From positions 1,760,828-1,824,827 of the forward strand of contig NZ_CP039865.1 of NCBI RefSeq assembly GCF_005160265.1: a DNA stretch of 64,000 nt, in the 5' to 3' direction. This document shows, one piece after another, positions 1,024 through 4,320 of the stretch. Within the stretch, counting starts at the first letter, position 1; each line of letters opens with the position of its first letter. Made by a program: the position numbers and the translations under genes. The notes beneath the pieces are model-generated. The model had not been told where the DNA came from. It saw only the letters and a program-made list of their open reading frames with translations, and did not search any database. The DNA comes from Phreatobacter aquaticus. Lineage in GTDB: Bacteria > Pseudomonadota > Alphaproteobacteria > Rhizobiales > Phreatobacteraceae.

Positions 1024-1524
1024 ATGAGCTACGTCACCGACAGTCTGGGACCGGGCGAGACCATCGTCCATGAGGCGAGCATCCACTGGATCGCCTATCT
1101 CTGGCCGTTCGTGACGATCATCCTCGGTCTGGGCATCGCTGTCCTGACCGTGACCTTCGGATCCAGCCGTCTGAACACCAGTTCGAACGGCCTGATCTGG
1201 CTCCTGGGTTTCGTGCCGCTGCTGGTCGGCATCGTCTGGTTTCTGGTCTCCAGGTTCCTGACGCGCACGACCGAGCTGGCAGTGACCTCCCGCAAGGTCG
1301 TGGCGAAGTGGGGCCTGATTGCCCGCTCCACCATCGAGCAGCGGCTGGAGAAGGTCGAATCGATTTCGGTCGATCAGACCTTCTGGGGCCGCATGTTGAA
1401 TTTCGGACATGTGACGGTTCACGGAACGGGTATTTCCGAGACCCCGATCAAGAGAATTGCTGATCCGCTGACCTTCCGCCGCAAGGTGGAGCAGGCCATC
1501 GAAGCCAGAAGGGAAGTCGGCTAA
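1024..1524 (+). CDS. PH-domain (bPH2, YdbS-like) membrane protein inside the atp operon
   Basis: Predicted 166-residue inner-membrane protein of unknown function. Two hydrophobic segments are visible at about residues 20-43 and 57-80. They are followed by a cytoplasmic bacterial PH domain (PF03703 type) containing [28 protein letters not shown] and GTGISETP. Family members bind no defined ligand in bacteria. The gene starts 7 bases after atpA, and its TAA stop shares one base with the atpG ATG (TAATG), so it is probably translationally coupled to both. The atpA-atpG junction is normally uninterrupted. A link to ATP synthase assembly or membrane stress is inference from position only. Confidence 0.9.
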
Positions 1525-2407: not shown

Positions 2408-3880
<1,473 letters not shown>

Positions 3881-3906: not shown

Positions 3907-4320
3907 ATGACGACCTTCTCCTTCGAACTGGTCTCGCCGGAGCGTCAGCTCTTCTCCGGCGCGGTGACCCAGGTGGTCGTGCCTGGCGCTGATGGTGAGT
4001 TCGGCATCTTCGCCGGCCACGCGCCCTTCGTGTCGTCGATCCGTCCGGGCATCCTGACGATCTACGGCGAAGGTCAGCCGAAGCGGCTCTATGTCCGCGG
4101 CGGCTTCGCCGAGGTCTCTTCCGGCACGCTCACCGTGCTTGCCGAGCAGGCCGTGGCGGTCGAGGACCTCGATGCCGGCCAGATCGACCGCGACATCAAG
4201 GCGGCCGAGGAAGACCTCGCCGACGCCAAGAGCGATGACGCGCGTTCGCGTGCTGCCGAGAAGTTGGCCCAGTTGAACGACGTCAAGGCCATCCTTGCCA
4301 CGTCGTCGACGGTCCACTGA
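3907..4320 (+). CDS. atpC: ATP synthase F1 subunit epsilon
   Basis: Epsilon subunit, part of the F1 central stalk and an intrinsic inhibitor of ATP hydrolysis. The 137-residue protein has the N-terminal beta-sandwich (FELVSPERQLFSGAV, GADGEFGIFAGHAPF) and a C-terminal alpha-hairpin from about residue 90. The last gene of the operon: a perfect hairpin with a T-run begins 22 bases after the stop. Confidence 0.96.
   Translation: MTTFSFELVSPERQLFSGAVTQVVVPGADGEFGIFAGHAPFVSSIRPGILTIYGEGQPKRLYVRGGFAEVSSGTLTVLAEQAVAVEDLDAGQIDRDIKAAEEDLADAKSDDARSRAAEKLAQLNDVKAILATSSTVH

Follow-up and report, generated by a model that had tools for sequence, protein, structure and literature searches.

A conserved membrane PH-domain gene between atpA and atpG in Phreatobacter, with a putative role in ATP-synthase assembly or stability

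We identified a gene for a two-helix membrane protein with a bacterial PH domain (here the PH gene and PH protein) between atpA and atpG in the F1 operon of Phreatobacter. Its open reading frame, the gene order and a one-base overlap with atpG recur in 11 of 11 testable genomes of the genus, which is more than chance. As the best single reading, held tentatively and at somewhat less than an even chance, we propose that the PH protein is a putative ATP-synthase assembly or stability factor. This proposal draws on the order and overlap kept in all 11 genomes, the selection on the protein, the genus-specific linkage in the sampled genomes, a likeness to EROS and PuhB, and the precedent of atp1/CGL160. 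A selected membrane protein at a nearly always closed junction offers a starting point for finding an ATP-synthase biogenesis factor, and such a factor would lie outside the known set of ATP11/ATP12, AtpI and Atp1/CGL160.

The locus and its conservation within Phreatobacter

The window is the whole 64,000-nucleotide stretch of Phreatobacter aquaticus DNA that was analysed. It opens within the F1 genes, where we mapped the following features.

3 to 1016, + strand: atpA (F1 alpha; Pfam PF00006 and PF00306), with its 5' end outside the window
1024 to 1524, + strand: two-helix membrane PH-domain gene, 166 aa (open reading frame; PF03703, 45.8 bits)
1063 to 1077, + strand: modelled N-terminal PH strand, residues 14-18, ahead of the hairpin (AlphaFold2 models)
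1087 to 1269, + strand: predicted transmembrane hairpin, modelled helices 22-49 and 55-82 (hydropathy, AlphaFold2 model)
1273 to 1518, + strand: remaining PH domain, residues 84-165, with six strands and two helices, one short and one C-terminal (Pfam, model)
1507 to 1513, + strand: AGAAGGG, Shine-Dalgarno-like motif for atpG, made of PH codons -5 and -4 (AGA AGG) and the next G
1522 to 1526, + strand: TAATG stop/start overlap of the PH gene and atpG (junction sequence)
1524 to 2393, + strand: atpG (F1 gamma; PF00231, 310 bits; NCBIfam F0F1 gamma)
2423 to 3880, + strand: atpD (F1 beta; Pfam)
3907 to 4320, + strand: atpC (F1 epsilon; PF02823)

The PH reading frame is intact from its ATG start to its TAA stop. 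With the atpA stop ending at 1016 and atpG starting at 1524, coordinates and reading-frame calls agree with the initial annotation, which had placed the gene 7 nt past atpA and in one-base overlap with atpG. Its description as a two-helix bPH_2 protein also stands. The protein matched bPH_2 (PF03703, formerly DUF304) with 45.8 bits against a cut-off of 22 over residues 81-153, and hydropathy placed two hydrophobic stretches (residues ~20-50 and 53-81) ahead of this match, in line with the two helices predicted by the model. The base composition had been likened to that of the neighbours; the gene is otherwise native-looking, but its GC content (0.606 versus 0.644-0.664) and GC3 (0.82 versus 0.86-0.89) are slightly lower. 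No second PF03703 gene above the cut-off was detected in the window genome (a single contig of 4,974,952 bases), where one weak match of 12.8 bits lies elsewhere.

A family search of 12 Phreatobacter genomes found the PH gene in 11. The twelfth (G003), 89% complete and in ~480 contigs, had no AtpG match and is therefore uninformative on the junction. The order atpA-PH-atpG was present in all 11 genomes with a readable junction, and in all 11 the PH gene overlaps atpG in the form TRATG (TAATG in one, TGATG in ten) and its reading frame is open. Between atpA and the PH gene lie 7 nt in the window genome and 12 nt in G005; the remaining nine genomes have 10 nt. The aligned PH start codon is ATG in five genomes and GTG in six. 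The gene had been judged not to be a fresh insertion, and its presence in every testable genome bears this out and shows that the arrangement does not belong to a single strain. The hairpin of the window genome exceeds that of the other 10 genomes by 16 residues (window positions 1159-1206, a placement that depends on the alignment).

The atpA-atpG junction outside the genus and the origin of the gene

We compared this junction across an order sample of 199 genomes (8 Phreatobacter and 191 others), with gaps estimated from match positions. The gap was 465-510 nt in the eight Phreatobacter genomes. Among the 191 others, 183 were measured, six had no match and two (G065 and G124) were unmeasurable; the gap was at most 209 nt in 182 of the 183, with a median of 47 nt over 184 junctions. 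The junction is thus normally uninterrupted, as the initial annotation had stated. One genome from another family of the order, G058, has a 579-nt junction that holds an HbpS-like gene (121.9 bits) unrelated to the PH gene. It represents an insertion independent of that in Phreatobacter, so the site is able to take passengers. The HbpS-like gene lies between atpA and atpG at positions 2095-2607 of its locus (L121), and its N-terminus looks signal-peptide-like by eye.

Homologues of the PH protein are more widespread than its position. They were detected at E<=1e-5 in 33 of the 199 order genomes (8 in the genus, 25 outside), in 39 of 289 genomes of a class sample (E<=1e-12) and in 23 of 397 of a phylum sample (E<=1e-15); the class and phylum samples overlap and both contain the window genome. 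No AtpA or AtpG was found near the homologue at any of 22 fetched non-genus order loci (flanks of ~1.5 kb, or as far as the contig reaches), and in G044, G106 and G026 the homologue is on a different contig from the atp junction. Likewise, AtpA, AtpG, AtpD and AtpC were absent from ~1.5 kb around the 29 loci (L050-L078) fetched from other genomes of the class sample and the 23 loci (L098-L120) added by the phylum sample. The class loci came from 29 of the 38 non-own matching genomes, one of the other nine being covered in the phylum set, and in some genomes the fetched loci cover the first match only. The linkage is therefore genus-specific in what was sampled. A survey of PF03703 genes at this junction, which the initial annotation had proposed, thus returned the arrangement in 11/11 testable Phreatobacter genomes but not at the fetched non-genus loci of the order, class and phylum samples. 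Among the titles listed from the open-licence literature, none dealt with the atpA-PH-atpG arrangement.

Relatives also occur on mobile and viral DNA. The PH protein matched 68 of 72,556 plasmid records in PLSDB, among them small plasmids of about 2.2 kb from Enterobacteriaceae and a 6.5-kb plasmid from Psychrobacter that is mobilizable, and also seven loci on viral contigs. In two plasmids, the relative is one of three annotated genes (L124, 2.2 kb, E. coli) and one of seven (L125, 6.5 kb, Psychrobacter). At three loci of family f32 (L025, L027 and L033), the homologues stand beside aspartokinase-like and methyltransferase genes, named by eye and in keeping with the Pfam tallies. The methyltransferase is presumably UbiG. 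This setting is recurrent but different from that in Phreatobacter. Shared neighbour functions were set aside as a clue, because the top Pfam families matched 4 of 78 ORFs (78 of 217 candidate neighbours). As these relatives on chromosomes, small plasmids and viral contigs lie away from atp genes, the basic function of the family is not ATP-synthase-specific.

Phylogenetic analysis of the PH family (67 rows, midpoint-rooted) recovered the 11 Phreatobacter proteins as one group (98/96). The nearest sampled row was from Caulobacter sp. SLTY (98/89), on a long branch. The other half of the tree held all 12 chromosomal rows of other Hyphomicrobiales, two of four plasmid rows and one of six viral-contig rows. 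The Phreatobacter half held the other two plasmid rows and five of six viral-contig rows, none directly adjoining Phreatobacter; the source may have been a plasmid or a virus. A vertical origin, from the copy that other Hyphomicrobiales carry, is not favoured, as Phreatobacter groups with Caulobacter SLTY, though the fork that separates the two halves is weak (56/82). Within the genus, the PH and AtpG gene trees contain the same four groups, although support for one of them is low in the AtpG tree (0.587). That tree also unites G004/G007 with the G000 group (0.995), a point left unresolved by the PH tree (0.076). A single Phreatobacter clade together with vertical descent makes one capture in the genus ancestor the likely and simplest history on these trees. 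The captured gene was perhaps acquired by horizontal transfer.

Selection, translation signals and competing explanations

Within the genus, mean pairwise identity of the PH protein was 92% over residues 80-166, 58% over residues 23-79 and 85% over residues 1-22. The dN of the soluble domain was 0 in five of eight pairs, with dN/dS of 0.11-0.34 in the other three, compared with 0.08-1.08 for the N-terminal and hairpin part and 0.03-0.27 for AtpG; these ratios are rough, since dS was small and four of the five zero-dN pairs fall inside one group of four close genomes. By these comparisons, the PH domain is under purifying selection while the transmembrane hairpin drifts. The pattern fits a cytoplasmic domain that matters and a hairpin that would serve mainly as an anchor.

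The end of the PH gene also carries a signal for its neighbour. AGAAGGG occurs in the last PH codons, with 10 nt between it and the atpG ATG, and the AGA-AGG codon pair is present near the 3' end in all 11 genomes. Both codons are rare here: AGA and AGG account for 0 and 2 of 60 Arg codons in the window atpA (part), atpG and atpD, and for 2 and 8 of 190 in the 11 genus atpG genes. In the 11 PH genes, they make up 28 of 104 Arg codons, 22 of which come from the conserved pair. Calculated against an assumed anti-Shine-Dalgarno 12-mer, duplex energies over the 11 genomes were -10.6 kcal/mol for atpG in every genome. For atpD they ranged from -5.8 to -7.4 and for the PH start from -2.2 to -6.3, with the PH value reaching or approaching the atpD range in four genomes (G001, G005, G008 and G011). 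Hence, atpG seems to be served by a ribosome-binding site inside the PH gene and can probably initiate alone. The initial annotation had considered gamma synthesis probably coupled to translation of the PH gene. The overlap is indeed kept in 11/11 genomes, but with so strong a motif in the last PH codons, coupling is probably not a requirement for atpG, though it may still add to its output. The PH start is poor in most genomes, and the PH gene may itself depend on reinitiation after atpA.

This embedded signal raises the possibility that the PH gene is a passenger retained in cis, since a ribosome-binding site for atpG and an overlap in its 3' end would make clean loss hard. The AGA-AGG pair and TRATG overlap in all 11 genomes agree with this, as does the unrelated HbpS-like gene at the G058 junction. 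So do the fourfold sites of the last 25 PH codons, which are near-invariant: 11/11, 11/11 and 10/10 in three sets of 3-5 genomes, and 8/10 across ten genomes, where the whole PH gene has 27/53 and atpG 31/90. However, other parts of the PH gene are also nearly invariant at such sites in the closest genome set (8/8 and 22/24), and the amino-acid constraint spans the whole PH domain, well beyond the last codons. A frameshifted or stop-bearing remnant would keep the atpG motif, yet all 11 copies are open. We regard retention in cis as improbable, although restriction of the arrangement to Phreatobacter and the unrelated gene in G058 keep it alive. The gene could also act mainly as a translational spacer that helps to set the alpha:gamma ratio by reinitiation, with the protein secondary. 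The contrast between the PH start (-2.2 to -6.3 kcal/mol) and atpG (-10.6), along with the overlap in 11/11 genomes, would suit such a device. We consider it very improbable, as it leaves the amino-acid-level purifying selection unexplained, elsewhere in the order a median gap of 47 nt suffices (184 junctions), and the PH start scores about like atpD in four genomes.

Position, selection and fold together favour a membrane role that profits from co-expression with F1. One form of it is a general membrane-protection, peptide-transport or homeostasis protein, YdbS-like, that exploits strong constitutive expression from the F1 operon without contacting ATP synthase. Homologues in unrelated contexts speak for it: in one family they adjoin aspartokinase-like and methyltransferase genes, and others are found on small plasmids and on viral contigs. 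As the sole above-cut-off PF03703 gene of the genome, the PH gene could also hold a general job. In Enterococcus, the PHb2 proteins DdE and DdF act in leaderless-bacteriocin transport, according to a passage in PMC8657885. On the other hand, the position is identical in 11/11 testable genomes, and YdbS goes with YdbT in the examples given there, whereas no second above-cut-off bPH_2 gene exists here. A purely general role is quite possible but on balance doubtful. We thus return to an assembly or stability factor as the preferred reading. Several points count against it: the hairpin, possibly the part in contact with membrane partners, is poorly conserved; the linkage was seen in one genus only; relatives live apart from atp genes; G058 carries a passenger; and the EROS match described below is weak (TM <0.5). 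Replacement of a lost F1 chaperone was ruled out, as ATP12 is above the cut-off in 12/12 Phreatobacter genomes, which leaves no evident gap for the PH protein to fill.

Beside the observed position, purifying selection on the PH domain, embedded atpG motif and predicted fold type, we infer a topology, expression level, partner and activity for the assembly or stability factor as follows. In the Phreatobacter ancestor, a free-standing two-helix PH gene would have entered the atpA-atpG junction in a single capture and been kept by selection. Its translation may lean on reinitiation after atpA, while atpG would use the motif in its 3' end. The hairpin would anchor the protein in the inner membrane so that the split PH domain faces the cytoplasm. 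There, the domain may bind subunits or intermediates of ATP synthase (F1, gamma or the F1-Fo interface) and either aid assembly at the membrane or shield unassembled subunits. Such a role is modelled by analogy on EROS for NOX2 and on PuhB as annotated for the photosynthetic complex. A more specific version, in which the protein is a dedicated F1Fo assembly chaperone of split-PH (EROS/PuhB-like) type recruited into the F1 operon from a widespread membrane-protein family, seems to us rather unlikely.

Predicted fold and comparison with known systems

Two AlphaFold2 models (pLDDT 75 and 83; pTM 0.61 and 0.69) share one layout: a strand at residues 14-18 is followed by two long helices, then by six strands accompanied by a short helix, and lastly by a helix at the C-terminus. 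They predict a PH domain split by a transmembrane hairpin, with one PH strand (14-18) preceding it. Foldseek searches of the PDB with these models gave no match at E<=0.001. The top match in both runs was a bacterial PH domain (3dcx_B, ~86 columns), and the second run also produced several long alignments with rmsd >12, which are of little meaning. EROS (8kei_D) ranked 11 and 16 (E 0.0098 and 0.014), aligned over nearly the full chain (168/165 columns, TM 0.48/0.45, rmsd 5.2/5.8). Chains of the Tetrahymena mitochondrial complex IV (8b6h_DR, 7w5z_F and 8gym_B) gave long, weak matches with probabilities of 0.63-0.85. Searching the sequences of solved structures with the PH protein returned two SNF7 sequences only (E ~0.8).

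At the family level, all 15 members of an alignment (A2) matched PF03703 at E<=1 (best 4.3e-15) and, weakly, PuhB (NF040894; best 7.9e-6). Comparison of the PH family with PuhB by hhalign gave 95.6% probability over 116 columns covering the strand, the hairpin and part of the PH domain. By these profiles, the PH family is distantly related to PuhB, though as NCBIfam may hold few other bPH_2 families, PuhB being the nearest there is weak evidence. PuhB was rejected as the identity of the protein, which scores 16.7 bits against the NF040894 cut-off of 110, and separate puhB genes exist in the genus. These were above the NCBIfam cut-off in three of eight sampled Phreatobacter genomes (G008, at L088, G002 and G009), elsewhere than the PH gene, which suggests that the genus has phototrophic members; in the window genome, no puhB match was detected at E<=1e-5. 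A passage in PMC10576062 calls the puh genes reaction-centre assembly genes. No EROS or Ycf4 Pfam family matched the window PH protein at E<=1, and neither was among the matches listed (25 of 26 Pfam families) for A2; for Ycf4, Pfam was the only sequence comparison with the PH family.

The closest structural parallel is EROS (CYBC1), the NOX2 chaperone. A passage of PMC9767466 describes it as a gp91phox chaperone built as a PH domain into which two membrane helices are inserted after strand 2 and before strand 3, and its relation to Ycf4, a photosystem I assembly factor, is claimed in a passage of PMC5379978. The PH models share with EROS a PH domain interrupted by a membrane hairpin and match it over nearly its full length, but EROS has two strands before the hairpin instead of one, identity is 11-12% and TM is below 0.5. 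The hosts and clients of EROS and Ycf4 (NOX2, photosystem I) also differ from the host and putative client of the Phreatobacter protein. PuhB, a photosynthetic complex putative assembly protein, shows a profile likeness at the family level, whereas the window protein itself is far below the NF040894 cut-off.

YdbS and other two-helix bPH_2 proteins share with the PH protein two helices, one bPH_2 domain and a length of ~150-170 aa. In the examples presented in PMC8657885, YdbS is paired with YdbT; the Phreatobacter gene is unpaired and inside the F1 operon, and no other bPH_2 gene above the cut-off, as a YdbT-like partner would be, was found in the window genome. To our knowledge, atp1/CGL160 and UncI (AtpI) have no bPH_2 similarity. 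They are likewise non-subunit membrane proteins encoded with ATP-synthase genes, to which a passage in PMC4383579 assigns an assembly role, with atp1/CGL160 described there as a membrane auxiliary factor in cyanobacterial atp operons. If the more specific version, a dedicated F1Fo assembly chaperone, is true, the clients of the split-PH membrane-chaperone architecture would include a rotary ATP synthase besides redox and photosynthetic complexes. An ATP-synthase biogenesis factor at this junction would further suggest what a common bacterial family, largely unassigned so far, does, and would connect that family with EROS, Ycf4 and PuhB.
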